Positions 7,011 through 21,127 of a stretch of DNA of 23,797 nt are shown one piece after another. The position numbers and the translations under genes are program-made. This DNA is from a virus, in IMG/VR virus record IMGVR_UViG_3300030098_005824, positions 1-23,797 of that record; one strand, given 5' to 3'. Position 1 is the stretch's first letter. The number at the start of each line of letters is the position of its first letter. A model generated the notes under the pieces. That model ran no database searches. It was given only the letters and a program-made list of their open reading frames with translations, and was not told where the DNA came from.

Positions 7011-7727
7011 ATGATAAACGTAAACGAAGTGTATGAAACTGTTTTAGCAATATGTAATAAAGAAAATAGAGGCTATATAACACCTCAAGAATTTAATTTA
7101 TTTGCTAATCAAGCACAAAATTCAATATTTTATAGTTATTTTTATGATTTAGATACTGCTAAAAAAAGGTCGTTTAGCAGTGATTATGTTAGTAAGGTTA
7201 ACTTACTTGAAGATAAACTGCATCCTTTCAAGTTTGATACTACTATTACAGACGGAGATTCAATAAGTAGTCTTGATGCTTTTTATAGATTAGCAAACGT
7301 TTATTATAAAGCACCTAATGCTGGTGATCAAGAAGGTATTATTGTTGAAGAAATAAGTTCTTTTGATCGAATAAGAATACAACAATCTCCATTAACAAGA
7401 GCAACTATAGATAGACCCATGTATTATATAAGTGGAGATTTATTTTTGACTATACATCCTGGAGAACAAGATCCTGCGCTTGGCACGTATTATGCTCAAT
7501 ATTATTTTCATCCAGGAAGAGTTAACTGGACTTACGTTGTTGTAAATGATAAACCTTTATATAATGGTTTTAGTCCTAATCATAAAAACTTTGATCTTGT
7601 TGAGTCTGAAAAACCTAAAGTAATAAACAAAATATTGCAATACGCAGGTGTATTGTTAAAAGATAATAATTTAATTCAATCATCAACAGCTGAAGAAATA
7701 AAAAGTATTCAAACTGAAAAACAATAA
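7011..7727 (+). CDS. Ring/neck (head-to-tail connector) protein, crAss-like
   Basis: The N-terminal block INVNEVYETVLAICNKENRG then YITPQEFNLFANQAQNSIF (residues 2-40) closely resembles a conserved protein of crAss-like phages encoded beside the tail connector genes. The 238-residue product is probably one of the rings stacked below the portal. The middle (about 95-190) is beta-rich with Tyr-rich strands (YYISGDLFLTIHPG, TYYAQYYFHPG). The C-terminus, VINKILQYAGVLLKDNNLIQ, is helical and resembles the C-terminal helix of small connector proteins. The ATG follows an A-rich, SD-less leader, and the next gene starts three bases after its stop, so the pair is likely translated together. The exact ring position cannot be told from sequence alone. 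Confidence 0.75.
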   Translation: MINVNEVYETVLAICNKENRGYITPQEFNLFANQAQNSIFYSYFYDLDTAKKRSFSSDYVSKVNLLEDKLHPFKFDTTITDGDSISSLDAFYRLANVYYKAPNAGDQEGIIVEEISSFDRIRIQQSPLTRATIDRPMYYISGDLFLTIHPGEQDPALGTYYAQYYFHPGRVNWTYVVVNDKPLYNGFSPNHKNFDLVESEKPKVINKILQYAGVLLKDNNLIQSSTAEEIKSIQTEKQ

Positions 7728-7730
7728 TAA

Positions 7731-9287
7731 ATGGGATTATTAAACGAAACACAAAAAAATTATTATAGAGGCGCTAACCATGGTAACTATCAGTTTACAT
7801 CTTTAAACGATATAATAAATCAATTTTTAGTTGTTTACGTTGGTGAAGGAAAAGCAATATCAAAAGCTAGTAGATTAGATGTAGCTTTTCACGCGCAAAG
7901 AGCTATGCAAGAACTATCGTTTGATACTTTTAAATCTGTAAAAACTCAAGAAATAGAATTACCACCTAGCTTAAAAATGATGCTTCCACAAGACTATGTT
8001 AATTATGTTAAACTAACATTTAGTGATAGCTCAGGTATTGAACACATAATATATCCTACTAGCAAAACTTCTAATCCTTTTAAAGTGCCTCAAAACGCAG
8101 ATGGTAGTTATAATTTCGCTGCTACTTTAAACGGTACTATTCCAAATGCAAATTTTGATGATCCTCTTCTAGGTACAACTGGTAATCCAGACGATGGTTG
8201 GTTACACTCAGAAATTACTTCTACAGCTTTGTCTAACGTAGATATAATAGATACAAATAACAGTGAATTAAGATTTGTTCATGGATCTGAAAACCATATA
8301 GGAGTTGGTGCTGGTATAGCTAGTAATGTATATTGCGTTTGGCAAAGAATAAACGTCACGGGTATGGACTTAATACATGTTTCAGCTGACGGTTTTTCTA
8401 GTAGCGCTTCTGTAGGTAATAAAGACGCTGGTATAATAAGATTTGGTATTTCACTTAGAGAGCCATCTAGTACAACTTCAATATCTACTTTTGATATAAC
8501 AAACACAAATCCTAATAGTCCTTTTAATCAAACTGCTGATCCATATCAAGTGTATACAGCTCAAATTTCAACAGGAGAATCTGCTTTTGCAGAGTTTAAT
8601 GATGGAAACGAAACTTTTTCAACAAAAAGTATAAATAATATAAATGTTGCTGATGCTCTTGAAGATCCAACTACAGGAGAAAAATATGTTTGGTTTGTAA
8701 TTACTAGTTTTGTACCTAACTATACTACTTTATATACCGCTGCTAGTCCAAATGAAAGTGTAAATCGTCTTGATAATATAACTTTTAGTTTTTTAGGTGA
8801 AATAGATAATTTAATACCAGAAGGTGATTCTACTACTTGGACAAACTTTAAATCACACAAGCCTTCTGAAAACAATATAAACGATTATCAAGATTATCAA
8901 AACCATATATACTGGCCTAACGAAGGAGAAAGATATGGTTTAGATCCTCAACACGCTCAAGTTAATGGTAGTTTTTATATAGACGAAAGAAAAGGTATGA
9001 TACATTTTTCATCAATATTATCAGGTAAAACTATTATTTTAGAATACATTAGCGACGGTTTAGGTACAGACCAAGAGATGAAGGTGCATAAATTTGCTGA
9101 AGAAGCTATGTACAAAAGTATAGCTCACGCAATAATTTCTGCTTCTTCATATGGACAGAACTTAGTTCGTAGATATAAAAAAGAAAAATTTGCTGCTATT
9201 AGACAAGCAAAATTAAGATTATCTAATATTAAATTAGAAGAAATAACTCAAATATTTAGAGGTAAATCTAAACAAATAAAACATTAA
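7731..9287 (+). CDS. Tail connector protein with inserted beta-rich domain, crAss-like
   Basis: The ends of this 518-residue protein carry a strongly conserved crAss-like pattern. At the N-terminus are NYQFTSLNDIINQFLVVYVG (19-38), HAQRAMQELSFDTFKSVKTQ (54-73) and LPQDYVNYVKL (85-95). At the C-terminus are QVNGSFYIDERKGMIHFSS (410-428), LEYISDGLG (437-445), KVHKFAEEAMYKSIAHAI (451-468) and RLSNIKLEEITQIFRGKSKQ (496-515). It is probably a ring or tail-tube connector, the role of P22 gp4 or T7 gp11 type adaptors. Between the halves, residues about 130-358 form an extra beta-rich domain that starts NGTIPNANFDD...DDGWLHSEI and ends NRLDNITFSF, the look of a CBM4/9-type jelly-roll. It starts three bases after the preceding stop. 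Confidence 0.78.
   Translation: MGLLNETQKNYYRGANHGNYQFTSLNDIINQFLVVYVGEGKAISKASRLDVAFHAQRAMQELSFDTFKSVKTQEIELPPSLKMMLPQDYVNYVKLTFSDSSGIEHIIYPTSKTSNPFKVPQNADGSYNFAATLNGTIPNANFDDPLLGTTGNPDDGWLHSEITSTALSNVDIIDTNNSELRFVHGSENHIGVGAGIASNVYCVWQRINVTGMDLIHVSADGFSSSASVGNKDAGIIRFGISLREPSSTTSISTFDITNTNPNSPFNQTADPYQVYTAQISTGESAFAEFNDGNETFSTKSINNINVADALEDPTTGEKYVWFVITSFVPNYTTLYTAASPNESVNRLDNITFSFLGEIDNLIPEGDSTTWTNFKSHKPSENNINDYQDYQNHIYWPNEGERYGLDPQHAQVNGSFYIDERKGMIHFSSILSGKTIILEYISDGLGTDQEMKVHKFAEEAMYKSIAHAIISASSYGQNLVRRYKKEKFAAIRQAKLRLSNIKLEEITQIFRGKSKQIKH
8127..8805 (+). other. Inserted carbohydrate-binding-like (jelly-roll) domain in the connector
   Basis: Codons about 133-358 of the connector interrupt the conserved N- and C-terminal blocks. 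The segment is rich in Ser, Thr, Asn and short beta strands, opens with an N-x-N-F...W pattern and closes with RLDNITFSFLG, the usual ending of CBM4/9-like modules. A similar RIDNITLRE ending occurs in the giant tail protein at residue 3163. The domain call is inference from pattern; no ligand residues can be assigned. Confidence 0.5.
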
Positions 9288-9291
9288 TTAA

Positions 9292-12200
9292 ATGCCAGAA
9301 ATTAAGAATACTTTTTTAAAAGGTCGAATGAACAAAGACCTTGACGAAAGGTTAGTGCCTAATGGAGAATATAGAGATGCACTTAATATTAATGTGTCTA
9401 CTTCAGAAGATTCTGATATTGGTACAGCCCAAACAATACTTGGTAATATAAGAATAGAAGATATTGTTGATATAGATTTTATTTGCATAGGTAGTATAGC
9501 TAATGAAAAAACAAATAAGCTATATTGGTTTCTAAAAAACGATAATGAAGGTACTGACGCTATATTAGAATATGATGGTAATATTGATGAGGTTTTTCAT
9601 ATATTTACAGATATAAAATCTAATACAGATGAGCCTGTACTTAGGTTTCCTAATAGAACAATAACAGGTATAAACATAATAGATAATTTACTTTTTTGGA
9701 CTGACGGCGAAGGTGAGCCTAAAAAAATAAATATAGATGACTGTAAAGATGGAACTATAGATTTATATCAACATACTCAACTAGTAGTTTTAGGTGATGA
9801 GCTAGGCGATATTAGAGAAGAAGATATTACAGTAATAAAAAAGAAGCCTACATTAGCACCAGTTGCCATACCTAATTTTATACAGTCTACAATACAAGAT
9901 AACACCTATAATCAAAAAACCTCTCTTTTTGAAAAAGTATTTTCAAGATTTGCTTTTAGATATAAATATAAAGACAATGAATACTCAGCTTTTGGCCCTT
10001 TCTCAAACGTAGTTTTTAATCCTCAATACGTAACAAATCCTCATAAAAAAAATAATGCTGCTAGTTTTGAACAATATAACAACGAAACTAGTTTTAGTAT
10101 AAACGAGCCTTTTAACGCTACTATGGTAAATAAAATAGATACCATAGATATATATAATTTTGTTTTACCAGACATGCCTAGAGGTGTAGTTGAAATAGAA
10201 ATACTTTACAAACAAGAAGATTCACCTGTTATTTATTCTATAGCTAAACTAAATAAAAAAGATACAGAAGGTTACTGGGATTTTAGTGGTTTTAATGAAG
10301 GCGCAAATCTTGCTACTGGTTCTTCAATACAAGGAAAATACACTATAACTACTGAAAATATATATGCTGCTCTACCAGAAAATCAATTTATTAGAGTTTT
10401 TGATACTGTTCCTAAAAAAGCTTTAGGTCAAGAAATAACTGGCAATAGGTTAGTTTACGCTAACTATACGCAAGGCTATAACATGGATGTTGATACTATT
10501 GGCAATGAACTATACTCTATACAAATAACAGCTGATTACGAAAAAAGAATAAATGATGCTAGTTTAAACTTTGATATAACACCTTTAAGATCATTAAAAT
10601 CTTTAAGAAACTATCAAGTAGGTATTGTTTTTGGTGATGAATATGGTAGAGAAACTCCTGTTTTTACATCTGCAGATGGCGCTGTTTCTGTTCCTTGGGC
10701 TGATAGCAGTAACGAAGGTAATGCTAGTTCTAGTTTAAGTTTAAAAGCTCAAATAAATTCTAATTACCCTAATTGGGCTAGTTATTTTAAGTTTTATATT
10801 AAAGAAACATCTACGGAATATTATAATTTAATAATGGATAAAGCATACGTTCCGTCTTCTCAAGATGAAAAAGATAGAAATGTATCTCCAAATCATATAT
10901 GGATATCTTTCTTTTCTTCTGATAGAAATAAAATTGATATAGAAGATCATATAATACTTAAAACAGTAATTAACGATGAAACAGAAGGTCAATATCCTTA
11001 TAACAATAAATTTAAAATAATTGATATTCAAAACGAAGCTCCAGATTCTATTTCTTACGAGTTTCATAACATAGCTAGTATAAGCAACGAAATATCTGTT
11101 GGTTCTACTGAAGGTAATTTAAGTAAAGTTTTAACAAATTTAAACCATAGTATTATATCTGTAGATACTGATACGTTAGAGTTTGACGTAGGCAATTTTC
11201 ATGATTTAGCTATTGGCGCTGGTGGTACATTTGGTCCTAGAACAGGCTATGAAGACGTTAAAGCCGCTAACAATCAAGATTATTTTATTTCTTGGTATAA
11301 ATTAGGTTCAGATGGAACAAGAGTATATTCTCAAGACTATAGAGTTAGATCTGTGCTTGGTAAAGATGGTACTTATAGAGTAAAATTACAAAAACGTATA
11401 GTTGCAAGTGACACTAATTTAGCTCAAAATGCTAGTGGTGATTTACATGAAAATGTTTTTTTAAATGTTTTTAGAAAACAAAGAAAAGAACCAGATCAAT
11501 TTTCTGGTAGGTTTTTTGTTAAAGTTTTGTTTGATTATGTTGTTAATGACATAAGAAATATTGCAGAGGTTTTTGACTTTACGGTTGTTGCCTCTGCTAA
11601 AATGAAATATTGGCTAGACAAATATGATGATCCTAATGGAACTTTAAATTATGATGAAGTAAATAAAATAGTAAACGTAGATTCTACTATAAATGATTAT
11701 GATACTTCAGCTGATGCTACTATTGGTACTGTAATTTTAGGTAATACTCACTCTGGTAGTAATATAGTAAACAAAGAAGAAAGTGATTGGAGTGTTTTAT
11801 ATAATCATTGTCATGACGGAAGTATATCTAACGCTTTCTTTATTGATAATATGTATTTTGCAGCTGGTCAATCAAATAAAGATTTAAAATACGCTAAATA
11901 CGCAACTGATGTTCTATCTGGTCAATCTGTTGGATCGACAGGTTCTCAATATACTTTTGCGACTTGGGAAAATAGACATCTTAGAGGTATACCACCTACA
12001 GCAGGTGCTACTTCTTTATTAAAACTTAAACCTAATTCATCTACACCTATGTATGATGCAGGTAATTATTTTGATTATTTAGTTCACCAACACGTTTCTT
12101 ACACAGGTAGTACTTCTAGCGTTGGTGTAGTTAATCCTCAAGATGATTTTGATGATGGAGAAGATTTTATAACAGCTGTAACAGCTGTAAATCCAGGAAG

Positions 12201-15200
12201 CTTTGTGTCTGGAAATTTTGTACCACCTATTACTCAAAGCAATTGGACAAGCAATACTTTAGCGTCTACGCCTTCTACTAACACAGGGTTTAATTATCAA
12301 GCTCCAAATGCAGTTTGGGCAGATTATAGATGGTACCCTTTCGCTAAAGATAGTAGCGTTGGTTATTATTTTAAACAATTTGGTACAGGTGCTGGAAATG
12401 TTGGTAGTGCTGGAGGTGCTGGAGCTGCTCTTGCAAACACAATGGTTGGTTTAAATGTAAATCATCCTTGGGTTACAGCTGATTTAGGTACTACTGTTGA
12501 TTGGAGTGCTTGGGATAATTATATAAAACCTATATATTCACAATCAATTACTAGTAGTGTTGATTTTGCTCCAGAAGCAATTACAAATAGCATGCAAGGT
12601 ATTTTTACTAGCACAACTCAACACACTATAGGTCCAAGTACGTCTGCTGCTTATCTTGCAGGAAATTTAGACGCTGGTTCTAAATCTTGGTTAAGTTACA
12701 AAAATAGTGACAATCAACTTCGTCATGATAATATTTACGGTCAAGATGATGGTAAAATTTTTATGCATTTATCGTTTTTAGGTCCTGGTAGAGATTTAGT
12801 GCCTGATAATTTAGATCTTACAAACGCAGATATAAAAGGTCCTAATTGTATAGGTGCTTATTTACAAGGTATACATGGTGGTGGTGTGTTTACAAAATCT
12901 GTAAAAGATGGTTTAGATAATGGTTGGGAGTTTAAAAGTACGCCTGAATGGAATTCACCACAAGTAATAGAATGTGAAGGCACGTCATACGATACTTATA
13001 AAAATCTTTATTCGCAACAACTTAATATTGGTAAAAACCCTAATTACCAAGATTTACATTATGATCAGTGGAGTCCTACAAAATGTATAAACGGTGATTC
13101 AAATAATGAAATAACTGATTTTTTACAAAACTTATTTTTTCCACAATCAAGGTTTAGATTTTCAGGAGATCCAAATGGTGCTATATACACTATAAAAAGT
13201 ATAAAAGAAAAATATTTATATAATCACACTCCTTGGAAAAGAAGATATGTTAAAAAATCTAGCTACACAAGTAGTTCTACTTTTCAAGAAATCGGAGATT
13301 TTAGAAATGAAATTAATATACAACCAGGTGGTGATAGTGTTGAAGAAGCTGCTGTTGCTTGGGCTAAAGCTAAAGAAGATAACGATTTTTTATTAGCATC
13401 AAAAACAAACGCATTAGAACAAAAAATAATAGATTTTGGTAAAGCAAATAATCGTCGTGTCGTATATATATTAGAATTAGTAGATGAAAATGGTAATCCT
13501 TTAGACCCTAGAATTGCATCATCAGGATTTAACCCAGTAGATGCTGATTCAGATGGTTCTGGTATAGTTGCGGCTAACGGTGATAGTAGAATGGAGTTTT
13601 TAAATTATTTACCTGGTATAGTTAGTGGTAATATTTCTAATAATCCCGCTATATGGGAAACAGAGCCAAGAGAAAATAAAGATTTAGAGGTTTATTACGA
13701 GGCAAGCAATGCTTTACCTACAAAGTTAAATGTTGATACATCGGAGCTTTACGCTCCTGTGGGTTGTAGAGTAGAAGCTTTAAATAGACCAGGCTCTTTA
13801 AATGGTCAAATTACACTTTCAGAATGCAATATAACTGGTTATAGTGAACACACAGATGGTAGACTTATTTTAGAAACAACTGGTTTTAATGCTATCGATG
13901 CAGCTGGTAATGTTATAACTTATGCAGATCCAAATCCTGGATTTGGTTTAGCAGCAACTACTTGTATATTAAAATGTATTAGAAACGATGGTAGCTATAC
14001 TATTTTTAGAGCAGTTGACTCTACTATAGATCAACCATTTAGTACCTTAGGTAACATTACAAGTAATTTTGTTGTAATATATCAAGTAGGTTTTGATTTT
14101 GGACTAAGCTGGTATAATTCTTTTAGTTTAGGCAATGGTATTGAATCTAATAGAATTAGAGACGAGTTTAATAAAATGCAAATTACTAACGGGGCTAGGG
14201 CTTCAGCTGTTTTAGACGAACCATATGCAGAAGAAAATAGAAAAAATGGTTTAATATATTCTGGTATATATAACTCTACTTCTAGCGTTAATAACTTAAA
14301 TCAGTTTATAATTGGTGAAAAAATTACAAAAGATTTAAATCCAACATACGGTAGTATACAAAAATTATTTCAAAGAAGAGTTAGTTTAATAGCTTTTTGT
14401 GAAGATAGAGTTGTTAGTATAGTTTCAAATAAAGATTCTTTGTTTAATGCTGATGGCAAGCCTCAGCTTATATCTTCCACAAACGTTTTAGGTGATGCAA
14501 ATCCTTTTATTGGTAATTATGGTATATCTAAAAATCCAGAGTCATTTGCTAGTGAGTCTTATAGAGCTTATTTTACAGACAAAGCAAGAGGTGCTGTACT
14601 AAGATTATCAAAAGATGGTTTAACACCTATATCTGATGCTGGTATGAAAGATTGGTTTAGAGATAATTTATCTAATTATGATGTTATACTTGGTAGTTAT
14701 GATAGTTATAACGATGATTATAATATCAGTTTAATTACAGAAGTTGAATTAGGTTACAATTTTATTAAAAACTCATTTTTAGATTATGGTGATATTAGTG
14801 TTACTCAAAGTTCTAATCCTGAATTAATACAAAATAATAATTTTAATAATAGTACAAATACAAATTGGCCTTCTGTTGTAAGCAACATATTAAACAATGA
14901 ACCTGATCAAACAAAAAATCCAGATTTAATTGTTAAGGTTGATATTACAGAGTACATGCAAATACCTGAAAATTATTTTCTTCAACCTACAACTGGTACT
15001 CCATCTGTTCCAGCTGTGTTAGGTCAACCTCCTGTATATGATACTTCAGCAGGACCAACAACATCTGGGCTTTTTGGTAATGCGGAAGCTCAGGTTTCAA
15101 TATATAGAATGTCTACACCTAGTCCAAACGAAAATGATAGTTATAAATATAATATATTTAAAACTCCTGATAACAACGATGGAAGTAAAAGTAGTTTTGG

Positions 15201-18200
15201 ACCACCTAATCTTACCGCTGATAGACCAGGTGCTCAAGGTTTAATGTTATTAAAACGAGAACTTAGAGGTTTTAGTCCTCTTAGAGACACAACAGATGCC
15301 GGTAATTATGTTAATAGACCTAGTGATGACAGAGGTGTAGCATCACAAGCAGGTTCAACACTATATGATCCTACTTACTGGCAACACGCTTGGGGTAATA
15401 TATATTATAATTGGTTTTATGGACTAAGTAATATTAATAATACTAATAATAATAGATATAATCAATATAATTTTCTTGATTATATTAAGCAAGGAACAAG
15501 CAAATCAATAAACCCTAGTGATCAAAGAGATGTTATAACGTTTGATTATAATTATCAAATTTACTACGAAGTAAGAAGTGGTATTTATAATAATACTTAT
15601 TATGGTAAACAACATGATCAATTGCAAATAGTTACTGATGTTGATGCTGGTAACTATACAACCACTACAGTTCCTCCAAATAATCCTTTTCAATTTATAT
15701 ATCAAGCTCTTTTAAAAAACAATTTAACTAGTGTAAACAACAATACTCCTAATGACGCTACTATTTATGCAGGAGAATCAATAACAATAGATATTGGTTA
15801 TATTGTTGAATTAGGACCTCAGTATTTATATGATTATTTTCCTCCGCAAAATTTAAGCGGACCAAACGGTGGTGGACCGACTTATGGTTTTGGAGATCCT
15901 AATCAAGGTTCTTTTGGAGTTCAGCCACAAAGTTTATGGAAAGGTTATAAAGGTGGAGAAACACAAAGTAATGCTAATGGAACCAATGGTTCTAGTATTA
16001 AAGATAATAGTGGGTTAGGTTTTAGCGTTAGCAAATCTAATCCTTTACCTAATTTAGGTAATAATAACAACTCTCATAATACTGTTTGGCCTTATTTCCA
16101 GCTTAGTGACAGCGGTGGAAATTTGTCATTAAACGGTAATTTTAGAAACCCTTGGAATCAACCTTTTGCTCACGAAATAATTGTAGAATTAACAGATGGT
16201 TCAAATATTATAAACAACGATCTTTTAGTAGATTCTACATTAGATCTTAATGATTTAGATGGATCAGGAAATTTAGTAGATAATGAATATAGATGGGAAA
16301 ATTCTAGTGGTAATCAAGGTGCATGGGTAAATACTTATCAAAAACCAGACGGATCTGGTAATTTAATAGATAATACACATTATACTACATATTCACTTGC
16401 TAGTACAAAAACTTTTGCTCCAGATATATTTAAAGTTTATGGTAATAATAATCAATTTGGTGTTGTTAAAATGAGGATTAAATATAAATTTAAAGACTGG
16501 ATTGATGAAGTTGATCCTAATTTTAATCCTACTACAGCAACTCAAGAAGAGTTAAAAAGAGCAAGTATGGTTGTTGTTGAAAAACTAAATGTAGGGCTAA
16601 GGTTTAGATGCCACGATTACGACGGTGTTGATACTAGAAATAGAATACATTTGTTTGAGCTTAGTGTTCAAAAAAATGATCATGCGACCGTGCCTCCAAC
16701 GTTTGGTACTCCAGCTGTACCAGGTGTACCTGGACAACCAGGTGTTCCAAGTTATACTGTACCTGGTATTGCGGCTGTTAATTATATATATTCTAACAAC
16801 GCTCAATCTCAACAAGATATACTTTACGGTAACATACAACCTAGTAATTTAAATTTATTTCCAGTAACAAAATCAACTTTAGCAGATGATCCTATAAATT
16901 TACAAGATTTAATAATGCAGTCTGTAGTTGGTCATGACGGCCTTACTTATACTTGGACTGAGATTGATCCCTCAGCAGTTGGTACTAATTTTTATGGTCA
17001 AGGTGTTTATCAAATTGGTAACGTGTCAACTCTTACTCAGTATGATACACATAACAATACGATAACATCAAATCCTGGAGTACCATTAGAAATAAACGAT
17101 GAAATTAGTATTTCACCTAGTGGTGTACTTACATCAACGTATTTAAAGTTTTTTACTGAAAGTTTTATATCTGATAACTATTATTTAATAGATATTGTAG
17201 ATGACCCAAACACTTCTAACGATACTATTTTTGTAGATGGTTTTTTTGATCAAAACAACTTGCCTGCAAATACTTTAAATCCAGGAGATAATGGTTATCC
17301 TTCAGGTCATTTTGGTGAAACTAATATTTTTGGGTTGCCTGCTGACGGTATTAAATTTAAAAGAGTTAATAGAGTAACGCTTCAAAATCATTTTGATTAT
17401 GACTTAGATGGTGTGTTTAATTATGTACCATCAGGTGAAGAACCTACAGCTTTAAGAGCTATAGTAAAAGCTCATGCTGGTTCTAGCGTAATAACATCTC
17501 AAAATGGTTTTAGTATTTCTGAATTACATTTAAGGGTAAATGAATATAGCGGTACTATTAAAAAAATAGTAATAAAAAATCTTGGAAATTATGCGCTAAT
17601 GCCAACATATCCAACTAGCACGCCTATAAATTTACCTGATTTTGGTTCTGTTGTAAACTGGCACGGTAGTTTTTCATCTGATTTAGCTCCTGTGTATCAC
17701 GCCATGAGTGTACCAATTCAATATGTAAGAAATAATGAAATACACATTAATTCTTTTCCGCAATTTGTATCTGCAAGTGAAAACACTTTGTGGACACAAT
17801 CTGGTAATCAAAATAGGTATATAGGTGGTAAACATACTAATGCTTCTATGCAATACGTAGGAACTAATTCCAATGAAGCACCACAACCTTCAAACGACGG
17901 TTACGAAATAATTTTTGAAGTTGGTAATGAACACTATAGTAATCAAATGACTCGTTTTAGATTTTTATATAGAAGTTATGACAACGCAACAACAGAAAGA
18001 AAAGGTTTTGCTGTAGCAGATATAGATACTCCTGGTACATATAGAGCTATAGCTAACTTTGATGGTAATACAACTTTACCTAATGGTAATCCTTGGAGCT
18101 TAGAGTTAGATACTGGTAGTGGTTTTACTGATATAAGTAATACTAGTTCTAACGCTGCTTTAATTGTAGATAACGGTACAACAGGTAGTGGAACTAATTG

Positions 18201-19536
18201 GCAGAATTGGTATGGTAGTTATTATTTTCTTCCATATAATAATTCTACTTCTTTTATTGCTAGCATAAAAAGTTTAAGCGCAAGAAGCATGACTAGTGTT
18301 TTAACTTTTACTTCAGTAAACGCTGCGGATGATTGGGTATTTAGTGGTTTTGATGCTACATTTTTTGAAGAAAACATATTATGGGATAACGGTAGTATAC
18401 TTATAAATAGCACAAATCAACCAACTTTAAATTGGACTGGACAGCATCAATATGTTTATGCTGCGCAACAACTTAGAAACCCTATAACAAACGCTCTAGC
18501 TCGTTTAGAAGCAAACAAAAAATATGTATTAAAGTTTGATATTACTCGTATATCTGGAACTGGTAATTTAGAAATGTTTTACATTAACGGTGCGACAGAT
18601 AAAGGTTTTCAAATAATAGAATCATATACTGATCATGCAATAGGTCAAACTGATACTGTTGAAAAATTAGTTGAAATACTTGATTTTACATCTTCAAATT
18701 ATGTTATTTATGATTATCATGATATAAAAGATTATTTTGTTATAATACCTACATCTGATTCAATTGTTTCTCATTATAGAATAGATAATATTACTTTACG
18801 CGAGACTCCTGAAAATTATGATTTACAAAGTTATACTTTAAGTTATAGTGAAGATGTTAGAGGTTGGACTAGTTTTAAATCTTTTATACCAGAAAGTGGT
18901 GTTAGTTTATCAAAAAAATATTATACTTTTAAAGAAGCAGCTTTGTACCAACACAATTTAGGTGATATATATAATAATTTTTATGGCATACAGTATGATT
19001 CTAGTATAACAGCAGTTCTTAATGCAGAACCTTCAGTTATAAAATCATTTAAAACATTAGGCTATGAAGGAACTCAAGCTAGAGTAAAAAAATATCAATA
19101 TTATACTGATGGTAGCTTAAGCTTTCAAGATTTACGTAATAATTTTACGCAAGGTGAAATATATGGATCACACTATAATTTAAAAGATAAAAACGGTTGG
19201 TATGTGCATGACATAACAACAAACAAACAACAAGGTGTTGTAAAAGAGTTTTTAGAAAAAGAAGGTAAATGGTTTAATTACATAAAAGGAAAAGAAGATT
19301 TAACAACAGAATATATTTCTAAACACATTGCTGACTTTAGTTTTAGAGGTATAGGTGTAATAAACGGCGCTGTAATAGTTCCTGATCCAATAATTTCTAG
19401 CGGTGGAACTACTAGTGGTACGACCACTGGCAATACTACTAGTACTACTACTGGTAATACTACTGGTACTACTACCGGAGGTGGCGGTACAACTACTGGT
19501 GGCGGCGGCGGTACAACTACTGGTGGAGGATATTAA
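9292..19536 (+). CDS. Giant muzzle-like tail protein (3414 residues)
   Basis: This single frame spans 10.2 kb. Its N-terminus, FLKGRMNKDLDERLVPNGEY (residues 8-27), and propeller-like strands resemble the tail-tip or muzzle proteins of crAss-like phages, functionally like P22 gp10 or T7 gp12. Conserved-looking blocks run FSRFAFRYKYKD (about 217), NYQVGIVFGDEYGRETPVF (about 440), WISFFSSDRNKIDIED (about 537), FSGRFFVKVLFD (about 735), then GNGIESNRIRDEFNKM...LNPTYGSIQKL...YGISKNPESF...GMKDWFRDNL (about 1612-1790), and VRGWTSFKSFIPESGVSL...KEGKWFNYIKG near the C-terminus (about 3190-3333). Between them lie long variable regions, about 760-1340 and 1820-3180, with Pro/Val/Gly linkers, Asn-rich patches and jelly-roll-like modules. 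It ends in a Thr/Gly tail. No signal peptide, lyase or protease motif was seen. It is far larger than I recall for the family, suggesting that receptor-binding domains were inserted. Confidence 0.8.
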   Translation: MPEIKNTFLKGRMNKDLDERLVPNGEYRDALNINVSTSEDSDIGTAQTILGNIRIEDIVDIDFICIGSIANEKTNKLYWFLKNDNEGTDAILEYDGNIDEVFHIFTDIKSNTDEPVLRFPNRTITGINIIDNLLFWTDGEGEPKKINIDDCKDGTIDLYQHTQLVVLGDELGDIREEDITVIKKKPTLAPVAIPNFIQSTIQDNTYNQKTSLFEKVFSRFAFRYKYKDNEYSAFGPFSNVVFNPQYVTNPHKKNNAASFEQYNNETSFSINEPFNATMVNKIDTIDIYNFVLPDMPRGVVEIEILYKQEDSPVIYSIAKLNKKDTEGYWDFSGFNEGANLATGSSIQGKYTITTENIYAALPENQFIRVFDTVPKKALGQEITGNRLVYANYTQGYNMDVDTIGNELYSIQITADYEKRINDASLNFDITPLRSLKSLRNYQVGIVFGDEYGRETPVFTSADGAVSVPWADSSNEGNASSSLSLKAQINSNYPNWASYFKFYIKETSTEYYNLIMDKAYVPSSQDEKDRNVSPNHIWISFFSSDRNKIDIEDHIILKTVINDETEGQYPYNNKFKIIDIQNEAPDSISYEFHNIASISNEISVGSTEGNLSKVLTNLNHSIISVDTDTLEFDVGNFHDLAIGAGGTFGPRTGYEDVKAANNQDYFISWYKLGSDGTRVYSQDYRVRSVLGKDGTYRVKLQKRIVASDTNLAQNASGDLHENVFLNVFRKQRKEPDQFSGRFFVKVLFDYVVNDIRNIAEVFDFTVVASAKMKYWLDKYDDPNGTLNYDEVNKIVNVDSTINDYDTSADATIGTVILGNTHSGSNIVNKEESDWSVLYNHCHDGSISNAFFIDNMYFAAGQSNKDLKYAKYATDVLSGQSVGSTGSQYTFATWENRHLRGIPPTAGATSLLKLKPNSSTPMYDAGNYFDYLVHQHVSYTGSTSSVGVVNPQDDFDDGEDFITAVTAVNPGSFVSGNFVPPITQSNWTSNTLASTPSTNTGFNYQAPNAVWADYRWYPFAKDSSVGYYFKQFGTGAGNVGSAGGAGAALANTMVGLNVNHPWVTADLGTTVDWSAWDNYIKPIYSQSITSSVDFAPEAITNSMQGIFTSTTQHTIGPSTSAAYLAGNLDAGSKSWLSYKNSDNQLRHDNIYGQDDGKIFMHLSFLGPGRDLVPDNLDLTNADIKGPNCIGAYLQGIHGGGVFTKSVKDGLDNGWEFKSTPEWNSPQVIECEGTSYDTYKNLYSQQLNIGKNPNYQDLHYDQWSPTKCINGDSNNEITDFLQNLFFPQSRFRFSGDPNGAIYTIKSIKEKYLYNHTPWKRRYVKKSSYTSSSTFQEIGDFRNEINIQPGGDSVEEAAVAWAKAKEDNDFLLASKTNALEQKIIDFGKANNRRVVYILELVDENGNPLDPRIASSGFNPVDADSDGSGIVAANGDSRMEFLNYLPGIVSGNISNNPAIWETEPRENKDLEVYYEASNALPTKLNVDTSELYAPVGCRVEALNRPGSLNGQITLSECNITGYSEHTDGRLILETTGFNAIDAAGNVITYADPNPGFGLAATTCILKCIRNDGSYTIFRAVDSTIDQPFSTLGNITSNFVVIYQVGFDFGLSWYNSFSLGNGIESNRIRDEFNKMQITNGARASAVLDEPYAEENRKNGLIYSGIYNSTSSVNNLNQFIIGEKITKDLNPTYGSIQKLFQRRVSLIAFCEDRVVSIVSNKDSLFNADGKPQLISSTNVLGDANPFIGNYGISKNPESFASESYRAYFTDKARGAVLRLSKDGLTPISDAGMKDWFRDNLSNYDVILGSYDSYNDDYNISLITEVELGYNFIKNSFLDYGDISVTQSSNPELIQNNNFNNSTNTNWPSVVSNILNNEPDQTKNPDLIVKVDITEYMQIPENYFLQPTTGTPSVPAVLGQPPVYDTSAGPTTSGLFGNAEAQVSIYRMSTPSPNENDSYKYNIFKTPDNNDGSKSSFGPPNLTADRPGAQGLMLLKRELRGFSPLRDTTDAGNYVNRPSDDRGVASQAGSTLYDPTYWQHAWGNIYYNWFYGLSNINNTNNNRYNQYNFLDYIKQGTSKSINPSDQRDVITFDYNYQIYYEVRSGIYNNTYYGKQHDQLQIVTDVDAGNYTTTTVPPNNPFQFIYQALLKNNLTSVNNNTPNDATIYAGESITIDIGYIVELGPQYLYDYFPPQNLSGPNGGGPTYGFGDPNQGSFGVQPQSLWKGYKGGETQSNANGTNGSSIKDNSGLGFSVSKSNPLPNLGNNNNSHNTVWPYFQLSDSGGNLSLNGNFRNPWNQPFAHEIIVELTDGSNIINNDLLVDSTLDLNDLDGSGNLVDNEYRWENSSGNQGAWVNTYQKPDGSGNLIDNTHYTTYSLASTKTFAPDIFKVYGNNNQFGVVKMRIKYKFKDWIDEVDPNFNPTTATQEELKRASMVVVEKLNVGLRFRCHDYDGVDTRNRIHLFELSVQKNDHATVPPTFGTPAVPGVPGQPGVPSYTVPGIAAVNYIYSNNAQSQQDILYGNIQPSNLNLFPVTKSTLADDPINLQDLIMQSVVGHDGLTYTWTEIDPSAVGTNFYGQGVYQIGNVSTLTQYDTHNNTITSNPGVPLEINDEISISPSGVLTSTYLKFFTESFISDNYYLIDIVDDPNTSNDTIFVDGFFDQNNLPANTLNPGDNGYPSGHFGETNIFGLPADGIKFKRVNRVTLQNHFDYDLDGVFNYVPSGEEPTALRAIVKAHAGSSVITSQNGFSISELHLRVNEYSGTIKKIVIKNLGNYALMPTYPTSTPINLPDFGSVVNWHGSFSSDLAPVYHAMSVPIQYVRNNEIHINSFPQFVSASENTLWTQSGNQNRYIGGKHTNASMQYVGTNSNEAPQPSNDGYEIIFEVGNEHYSNQMTRFRFLYRSYDNATTERKGFAVADIDTPGTYRAIANFDGNTTLPNGNPWSLELDTGSGFTDISNTSSNAALIVDNGTTGSGTNWQNWYGSYYFLPYNNSTSFIASIKSLSARSMTSVLTFTSVNAADDWVFSGFDATFFEENILWDNGSILINSTNQPTLNWTGQHQYVYAAQQLRNPITNALARLEANKKYVLKFDITRISGTGNLEMFYINGATDKGFQIIESYTDHAIGQTDTVEKLVEILDFTSSNYVIYDYHDIKDYFVIIPTSDSIVSHYRIDNITLRETPENYDLQSYTLSYSEDVRGWTSFKSFIPESGVSLSKKYYTFKEAALYQHNLGDIYNNFYGIQYDSSITAVLNAEPSVIKSFKTLGYEGTQARVKKYQYYTDGSLSFQDLRNNFTQGEIYGSHYNLKDKNGWYVHDITTNKQQGVVKEFLEKEGKWFNYIKGKEDLTTEYISKHIADFSFRGIGVINGAVIVPDPIISSGGTTSGTTTGNTTSTTTGNTTGTTTGGGGTTTGGGGGTTTGGGY
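14995..15063 (+). repeat. Pro/Val-rich linker, copy 1, in the giant tail protein
   Basis: Codons about 1902-1924 read GTPSVPAVLGQPPVYDTSAG. The pattern G-T-P-x-V-P-x-V-x-G-Q-P recurs 570 residues later at 16705, and the DNA is also alike (ggtactcca.ctgt.ccag). It is probably a flexible spacer between folded modules or an exposed loop. Confidence 0.6.
16705..16770 (+). repeat. Pro/Val/Gly-rich linker, copy 2, with collagen-like triplets
   Basis: Codons about 2472-2493 read GTPAVPGVPGQPGVPSYTVP. They include three Gly-X-Pro triplets in a row (GVP GQP GVP) and match copy 1 at 14995. Three triplets are too few for a stable collagen helix, so a linker is more likely. Confidence 0.65.
18490..18815 (+). 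other. CBM4/9-like module near the C-terminus of the giant tail protein
   Basis: Codons about 3067-3174 hold ANKKYVLKFDITRISGTGNL (about 3074-3093), then EMFYINGATDKGF, and close with RIDNITLRE at 3163-3171. The order of a K-Y-x-L-x-F-D-I strand, a G-T-G-x-L-x-x-x strand and a final D-N-I-T strand is typical of jelly-roll carbohydrate-binding modules. The conserved C-terminal block VRGWTSFKSF follows directly. Sugar binding is inferred. Confidence 0.5.
19402..19536 (+). repeat. Thr/Gly low-complexity C-terminal tail
   Basis: The last 44 codons of the giant protein encode almost only Gly and Thr with a few Asn and Ser and a final Tyr. The DNA contains direct repeats; ggcggtacaactactggt is present at 19483-19500 and exactly again at 19507-19524, and act-act-act runs precede it. 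This is slippage-prone and probably varies in length between relatives. The protein tail would be flexible and exposed. Confidence 0.85.
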
Positions 19537-19546
19537 AAAATAAAAT

Positions 19547-21127
19547 ATGAGTTATCATTATACAAATCAAAATAGAGTAACAACTTCAACACAAACAACG
19601 ACACAAAGAGTGACGAGCGCACAGCTATCAACACAACCAGCGCAAAATATTTTAACTTATATTAGCGGAGTACCTCTATTTAGAACTATACAACAAGCTT
19701 TAGCTTATGGTCAACAAGTAGGTTTACGTGGTTATCACACGCATAACTTTCAAGGTGTTGTTGGTTATATGGCTGGGTTTGATCACACAGAAGCATCTAG
19801 AATTACTGCTACAAATGTTGAAACACAAAAAACTATAAAAAATTTTGTTATAAAAGACACAGATTTAACTGTTAATGCAGAAACAAGAAATTTTACTATA
19901 AACGGAGATATAGGATCTAAATTTATTATGCAAGTTATAGAAAAACCTGCTTCGTCTAGCGCTATGGAAAAGTATTATAATTTTAAAACAAAAACTTTTG
20001 AAACAACTACAGCAGGAGTTAATGTAAATCATTTTTTAAAACGAGAGCTTGTAAATAACAATTATACAGATAGAATACTTTTTCCTGCTAGTACTAGTAA
20101 TGGTTATAAAATACTTTTAATGGCAGATCCAGATTCACCTACTATTTTATCGCAAAGCTTAAGTTCATCAAACGTTTTTAGTAAAGATATAAACGATGTA
20201 GCAAATACTACGATTACTTTTGTTTTTAAAACAGCTAATACTAGTACTTATGCTAGTAATCCACCTTCACCTAACTTAACAATATCTGCTCCTCCAGGTA
20301 GACAACAATTAGCCAACACTTTAGATATTGCTAAAACATTAACAAATACTAATTCTGATGCTAATGGTTTTGGTTTAAGAATTACTAGTGCTTTTGATAT
20401 TGAAACTGGTATTTTTTGTGAAAAAACACATACTATAAACGGTGCTGTTAGTAGTTCAAAAACTATAGTTTTAGACAGCGTAGATGGTATAGATGCTAGA
20501 GATACAATAACTAGTGTTAGTGGTGGTGGAGATAGTCTTAGCGGTACTCCTACTGTAAGTACTGTAGATACAGAAACTAACACAATAACACTAACAGGTA
20601 ATAATCAAAGTTTTTCCGACGGAAGTACTTTAACTTTTAAAATAACTGGTAGATCACGTATACAAAGTGCTTTTGGTATTGATTTTAATATTATAAATTT
20701 AGCTATTTTAACTAAAGATATTAAAAAAGCAACAGATTCTTCTATTGATAATAACGTTTTGATCGGAAATCCATTAACAGTTAGTAAAACCGTTAGAGGT
20801 AATATAAGTAGTGGAGCTGGTTTAAGTGGTGGTCTTAACTTAAATGGTACATATGGATTATCTGGAGGAAATGTAGTTTCTATACTTGGTAATGGTATTA
20901 TAGATGATTGTTTATTAAGCGAGATTACAGCTAGTGCTAGTGCAGGTTCAATATCTACATCTACTACTCACGACGATTTACAATCAGGTCAAAAACTTAC
21001 TTTTGTAGGATCAGCTCAAACAATAAGTCTTACAAACTGTACTTTTACACCAAAAGTTTTTCCTAATTCTAATTTAACTATTAATTTAGATTTAGATACT
21101 TTTATAACACCTGGAACAGCAACATAA
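19547..21127 (+). CDS. Probable virion (tail appendage) protein
   Basis: I do not recognise a named family. The 526-residue product begins with a Thr/Gln-rich segment (1-32), then RGYHTHNFQGVVGYMAGFDH (61-80), a His motif of a type I recall in phage tail and fibre proteins; His64, His66 and His80 could bind a metal or form a turn. After it come beta-rich segments (NFVIKDTDLTVNAETRNFTI), a Ser/Thr/Gly-rich middle (about 250-370) with short strand repeats, and a C-terminal part with TITL, LTFK and SISTSTTHDD elements. No catalytic triad, coiled coil or membrane segment is seen. It follows the giant tail protein by ten bases, so an appendage or fibre role is likely. Leader ATAAAATATG, no Shine-Dalgarno; the GGAGGA 16 bases upstream is Gly codons. 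Confidence 0.6.
   Translation: MSYHYTNQNRVTTSTQTTTQRVTSAQLSTQPAQNILTYISGVPLFRTIQQALAYGQQVGLRGYHTHNFQGVVGYMAGFDHTEASRITATNVETQKTIKNFVIKDTDLTVNAETRNFTINGDIGSKFIMQVIEKPASSSAMEKYYNFKTKTFETTTAGVNVNHFLKRELVNNNYTDRILFPASTSNGYKILLMADPDSPTILSQSLSSSNVFSKDINDVANTTITFVFKTANTSTYASNPPSPNLTISAPPGRQQLANTLDIAKTLTNTNSDANGFGLRITSAFDIETGIFCEKTHTINGAVSSSKTIVLDSVDGIDARDTITSVSGGGDSLSGTPTVSTVDTETNTITLTGNNQSFSDGSTLTFKITGRSRIQSAFGIDFNIINLAILTKDIKKATDSSIDNNVLIGNPLTVSKTVRGNISSGAGLSGGLNLNGTYGLSGGNVVSILGNGIIDDCLLSEITASASAGSISTSTTHDDLQSGQKLTFVGSAQTISLTNCTFTPKVFPNSNLTINLDLDTFITPGTAT

Follow-up and report, generated by a model that had tools for sequence, protein, structure and literature searches.

Carbohydrate-binding modules (CBMs) on a phage neck are known from lactococcal phages, in one of which a neck CBM binds the host when tested as a GFP fusion (PMC6669499). 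In crAss001, the ring proteins form dodecameric rings of the barrel, and the passages describing these rings assign a fibre-docking collar to R1 and R2 (PMC10172136). The window analysed here, the entire 23,797-base virus record IMGVR_UViG_3300030098_005824 of IMG/VR, encodes the end of TerL, a portal protein, an unassigned protein, an MCP-type protein, a second unassigned protein, a 238-aa protein, a 518-aa protein and a muzzle protein, in this order. Cellulophaga phage phi38:1 has the same gene order, with gp96 (283 aa) as the orthologue of the 518-aa protein. The initial annotation had called the relatives of this virus crAss-like, which stands in the broad sense only, as the phi38:1 record is filed under Pervagoviridae. 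The 518-aa open reading frame (7731–9287, plus strand) belongs to phrog_13977, a virion structural protein family (PHROG profile, E 6.7e-39), and the 273-position profile covers both halves of the protein in two separate stretches. In a phage collection, 85 records match the protein, from phages of Flavobacterium, Cellulophaga and Maribacter, and none covers 80% of its length. A search of NCBIfam with the 518-aa protein found nothing, and neither the whole protein nor a profile of its short form gave a match in sequence searches of a solved-structure library.

The initial annotation described the 518-aa protein as a head-tail connector. We infer a place in the neck or tail barrel from synteny, between a ring-protein homologue and the muzzle gene, and from the predicted alpha-beta-alpha order of the protein. 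By profile comparison, the upstream 238-aa protein (7011–7727, plus strand; phrog_14543), which has no insert in the window, is a homologue of the ring proteins: 180 columns can be aligned with the crAss001 gp34 profile (probability 93, E 3.5e-7). In the solved-structure library, its own profile gave chance-level matches only. Against the crAss001 ring profiles gp34, gp35, gp40 and gp43, the 518-aa protein scored a probability below 1 in hhalign for all four, and these ring profiles are themselves mutually blind except for gp34 and gp35. Single-sequence hhalign comparisons with the same four proteins gave no match. The muzzle homologue (3414 aa; 9292–19536, plus strand) is recognized by Pfam crAss_MUZ_C above the cut-off and starts 5 bases past the 518-aa gene, and in crAss001 gp43 precedes gp44. 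This place before the muzzle gene, like that of the R1 protein gp43, suggests that the 518-aa protein may be the R1 counterpart and thus a ring member.

Since gp97, the phi38:1 counterpart of the muzzle homologue, has 1324 aa, the 3414-aa protein must contain large insertions. By eye, a stretch at about residues 3000–3179, which precedes the crAss_MUZ_C match, resembles CBM4/9 modules; Pfam finds there only F5_F8_type_C at E 0.079. Kinship of this C-terminal segment with the insert of the 518-aa protein was considered and is not supported, as the profile comparison between the two failed. Past the muzzle gene, a 526-aa protein (19547–21127) has weak matches only, to a PHROG major head protein (E 0.051) and to Pfam Plug (E 0.028).

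The two halves of the 518-aa protein are interrupted, as first proposed. The N-terminal part (residues 1–125) and the C-terminal part (361–518) are conserved at ~53–87% identity in all 80 listed IMG/VR relatives, the best 80 of 596 in order of their similarity to the 518-aa protein, and within these best 80 the middle of the protein matches only three (L001–L003, 27–34% identity). The best boundaries of the insert are residues 130–364 (8118–8822, plus strand; ~235 residues), and the ~225-residue segment first delimited at 8127–8805 sits just within them. Alignment to the relatives leaves a conserved N-terminal core of residues 1–129 (7731–8117, plus strand) and a conserved C-terminal core of residues 365–518 with the stop codon (8823–9287, plus strand). 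With the loci found by an insert query added, the set comprises 91 distinct proteins, of which 90, the window included, are measurable; L082 was excluded because the slot anchors are absent. Measured between TSNP-like and RYGL-like motifs, the slot is 52–72 aa long in 47 of the 90 and 142–290 aa long in the other 43, with none in between, although sampling through insert-bearing queries means that these frequencies are not population estimates. Such all-or-none lengths, with a gap from 72 to 142 aa, exclude ordinary length drift. All inserts share a single insertion site, between DGxYxF-like and SxTWxxYK-like motifs, and insert-free relatives such as phi38:1 gp96 are ~290 aa long. Since 47 of the 90 sampled homologues lack the segment, it is no fixed part of the connector, and the idea that it is constitutive to the connector fold was rejected. 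An artefact of frame or annotation was also rejected, because the frame is open and the insert is in frame in every relative bearing it.

The insert-only model, folded with 17 homologues, is a ten-strand jelly-roll (pTM 0.78, mean pLDDT 72). Most core strands have a pLDDT above 80, and one loop, residues 247–271, has a pLDDT below 50. It contains no helix of four or more residues, in agreement with the beta-rich character noticed at first, and structure prediction thus yields a CBM-like beta-sandwich. In VIA-align, the top rows include a segment of the arabinanase EndoMA1 (chain residues 333–480, Z 12.8), a porphyran CBM (12.2), CBM16 (12.0), a hyaluronan-binding module (11.9), CBM61 (11.8), an alginate CBM (11.6) and CBM4 (11.2), with superpositions of 2.3–3.6 Å across 129–164 residues. 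Foldseek matches the insert model to the CBM4 structure 1gui at E 2.9e-5. Residues 128–360 of the full-length model give the same match class, in a model that is weak overall (pLDDT 61, pTM 0.38). According to these models, the window insert is predicted to belong to the CBM4/16/61-like jelly-roll fold class. The initial annotation as a CBM4/9 module therefore holds as a fold class (Z 11.2–12.2 to CBM4, CBM16 and CBM61) but not as family membership: Pfam CBM_4_9 (PF02018) has no match to the window insert at E up to 1, so the insert is not filed as a member. A sequence search of the solved-structure library with the insert profile returned nothing. Jelly-rolls that do not bind sugar, including ephrin receptor domains, cyclases and Cry-toxin domains, also score high, not far below the CBMs, so the fold alone is no proof of function. 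Matches in a viral fold library were not counted as evidence; they have low TM-scores and fall mostly on proteins of the tail-fibre, tailspike and capsid type.

The insert may bind sugar, and it may be positioned outward on the virion. Alternatively, it might work inside the barrel or in assembly only, for instance by touching DNA or cargo proteins, with the CBM fold being incidental. The full-length model is too weak to orient the insert, and the barrels of crAss001 store cargo (PMC10172136), but about 12 domains of 235 residues would crowd the lumen and the fast turnover seen in dN/dS would be unlike a channel lining. We regard a role inside the barrel as unlikely.

The slot does not always hold the same domain. 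Clustering with phmmer divides the 43 inserts into CBMw, the window type (18), GMV (16), GMVb (5), CBMx (2) and two singletons, and by this grouping the slot is filled by at least three unrelated insert families. The GMV inserts carry a GMxVxGxxIPxGTxV-like motif, and GMVb is a small type with no clear link to GMV in profile comparison. The two CBMx inserts, of L005 and L008, are CBM4/9-like; the one of L005 matches Pfam CBM_4_9 at E 3.6e-5 with 24.6 bits, 1.3 bits short of the cut-off of 25.9. One singleton, in L048 (5361–5930), is Cys-bearing, matches nothing in Pfam up to an E of 1 and has no kin among the other inserts. As about half of the occupants (GMV, GMVb and the L048 insert) are not CBM-like, the slot need not serve sugar binding. 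Searching viral contigs with the window insert gave 18 loci, every one in the same gene, and a repeat with a larger alignment gave 16, virtually none of them in a new contig. The insert profile found no CBMw copy in other genes of the loci covered by that search. In some relatives, the upstream gene and large genes further downstream contain GMV-type matches as well; the match of L006 is by construction because the GMV1 profile included it. The insert alone had no match in the phage collection, and of the 17 stretches in genome contigs that fit the pattern of its profile none was confirmed as a relative, so no bacterial source was found. Its GC content of 0.33 resembles that of the surrounding halves (0.31 and 0.30).

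Inserts change faster than the protein that carries them. L032, which has no insert, and L042, which has one of ~90 aa, are 96.6% identical in their cores; judged from this alignment, they represent a recent gain or loss, and an insert can appear or vanish while the core hardly changes. A tree built from the conserved halves requires 18 changes of the slot state, compared with a minimum of 6 and a mean of 37.5 after shuffling, which means that the state is inherited, yet often changed. This quick tree of 86 rows (L051, L071, L093 and L100, whose C part is incomplete, are omitted) has SH-aLRT support only, and gains and losses are indistinguishable on it. Among pairs of CBMw proteins, insert identity is below core identity in 119 of 120. 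The exception, L095 and L096, has an insert dS of 0.195 against a core dS of 1.119, and the reverse pattern is found for L095 and L099 (insert 0.605, core 0.220). These opposite contrasts indicate that recombination transfers the module.

In all 15 pairs compared, dN/dS is higher for the insert than for the core. In 13 of them, none involving the window, the insert value is 0.15–0.59; the two pairs that include the window give 0.94 and 1.04, at a dS close to saturation. The inserts are mostly under purifying selection, as the close pairs show. The inserts might instead be neutral or selfish filler that is tolerated and then decays. A patchy distribution and the values near 1 in both window comparisons are what such filler would leave, but the frame is open throughout, W34, Y78, Q82, R114 and G116 (internal numbering) are invariant in 18 distinct CBMw members, and the low ratios of the 13 non-window pairs, the close ones above all, already disfavour it. 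We consider filler highly improbable.

A structural decoration that does not bind sugar deserves more weight. The insert would then enlarge the collar, stabilize the neck or dock fibres, and any compact beta domain would suffice. Such a role accords with the occurrence of unrelated families in the same slot and with the 47 of 90 relatives that are insert-free, and in crAss001 the MCP and the muzzle also have beta insertions with structural roles (PMC10172136). Against it, the raised dN/dS in all 15 pairs together with module exchange is more like a host-facing part, and two separate occupants are CBM-like, the window type by fold and the L005/L008 type by sequence. On balance, purely structural decoration appears doubtful.

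The finding is wider than the initial annotation: the slot has several occupants, and in relatives inserts are also present in the upstream gene. Among 187 genomes having both genes complete, 34 have an insert in the upstream protein, near residue 160 or near residue 80; these genomes were drawn from insert-bearing queries, and the relative lists are each the best 80 of 594–597. The upstream ring homologues of L056 (3792–4997), L066 (3825–4997), L067 (3801–4997) and L077 (3777–4997) have inserts of ~150–165 residues near residue 80 that look CBM4/9-like by eye. Profile comparison relates the residue-80 inserts to the downstream CBMx inserts (probability 74.6, E 2.6e-5), and a CBM_4_9 scan of two of them gave a match in one, L067, at E 0.021, below the cut-off. 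Inserts in both genes occur in 1 of the 187 genomes versus ~8.5 expected (Fisher p 3.6e-4). The one genome, L226, has 113 aa inserted upstream and 166 aa downstream, and strict exclusivity was dropped on its account. Of 73 genomes whose upstream state was not selected for (from the best 80 of 596), 13 and 28 carry the one or the other insert, and not a single one carries both. A tree-based paired test is not significant, with too few independent pairs, so exclusivity is a lead only. The two adjacent neck genes might form a modular collar system with three alternative sites, in which interchangeable CBM-like and other beta domains are drawn from a shared, horizontally moving pool and normally no more than one neck protein is decorated per phage. 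We put this forward tentatively, as a possibility a little short of an even chance. If true, the neck would be, besides the tail tip, a rapidly evolving surface for glycan recognition. In contigs found with crAss001 gp43, L276 (512–1648) and L273 (1–933) encode gp34-type ring proteins with insertions of more than 100 residues at the equivalent of residue 160, not CBM-like in sequence by eye. Decorated rings may therefore exist in Crassvirales proper as well.

The explanation that we favour, and hold to be somewhat probable, is that an autonomous CBM-like jelly-roll sits in a loop of a neck/tail-barrel protein, that this loop is an exchangeable decoration slot, and that the domains form an outward collar binding polysaccharide. 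In phages of this lineage the loop would be either empty or filled by one of several unrelated domains. By analogy with the crAss001 rings, ~12 copies would assemble in a ring with the insert facing outward, and the ~12 CBM-like heads would make a lectin-like collar. Such a collar would bind host capsule or free polysaccharide weakly but multivalently, and would keep the virion in place at the cell surface ahead of engagement by the muzzle. The fast, modular turnover of the insert is as expected of a part that tracks variable surface glycans. We think weak multivalent polysaccharide binding at the collar to be the most likely mechanism. How Bacteroidota phages pass polysaccharide capsules and gels is an open question, and few phages are as abundant as the crAss-like ones. 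Domains from the slot can be expressed and assayed directly to learn whether decorations of the neck determine adsorption or host range, and insert-free relatives with 97% core identity are available as natural controls. In addition, neck genes, usually regarded as conserved, prove to carry fast-moving modules.

Several known systems share parts of this arrangement. In the lactococcal phages too, CBM domains decorate parts of the virion remote from the tail tip, on neck and tail, and vary between close phages; there, the neck CBM of the siphophage ends a separate collar-fibre protein (PMC6669499), whereas the CBM-like domain here lies within a short neck/barrel protein of a Bacteroidota podophage, in a slot that takes several unrelated families. 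A phage mosaicism survey likewise describes ongoing swapping of neck-passage domains on a conserved base of neck proteins, but there C-terminal domains are exchanged rather than an internal loop insert, and crAss-like neck proteins do not appear in its account of this exchange (PMC10684548). In the marine Roseophage R4C, the Dit and megatron proteins of the tail machine also have inserted carbohydrate-binding-like domains, which are placed at the distal tail of a siphophage and not at the neck or barrel of a podophage (PMC10276861). PhicrAss001 R1–R5 resemble this locus in the gp34-type upstream neighbour and in the position of the gene just ahead of the muzzle, as for R1 gp43; the ring proteins (PMC10172136) have 225–238 aa without such an insert, and no profile links them to the 518-aa protein. 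Solved CBMs of families 4, 16 and 61 and the porphyran, alginate and hyaluronan modules (PDB 1gui, 2zey, 2xom, 8xmz, 8zqf and 4d0q) have the beta jelly-roll predicted for the insert (Z 11.2–12.2) at ~12% identity (8–17%), but they are appended to secreted proteins or enzymes, and the insert lies in a virion neck protein. In titles and abstract starts of the open-licence PMC literature, we found no description, for crAss-like phages, of ring or neck proteins that bear CBM-like inserts. Neck CBMs in lactococcal phages, exchange of neck-passage domains and carbohydrate-binding tail insertions are thus known already; new are the place of the insert, the slot shared by several families and the host group.
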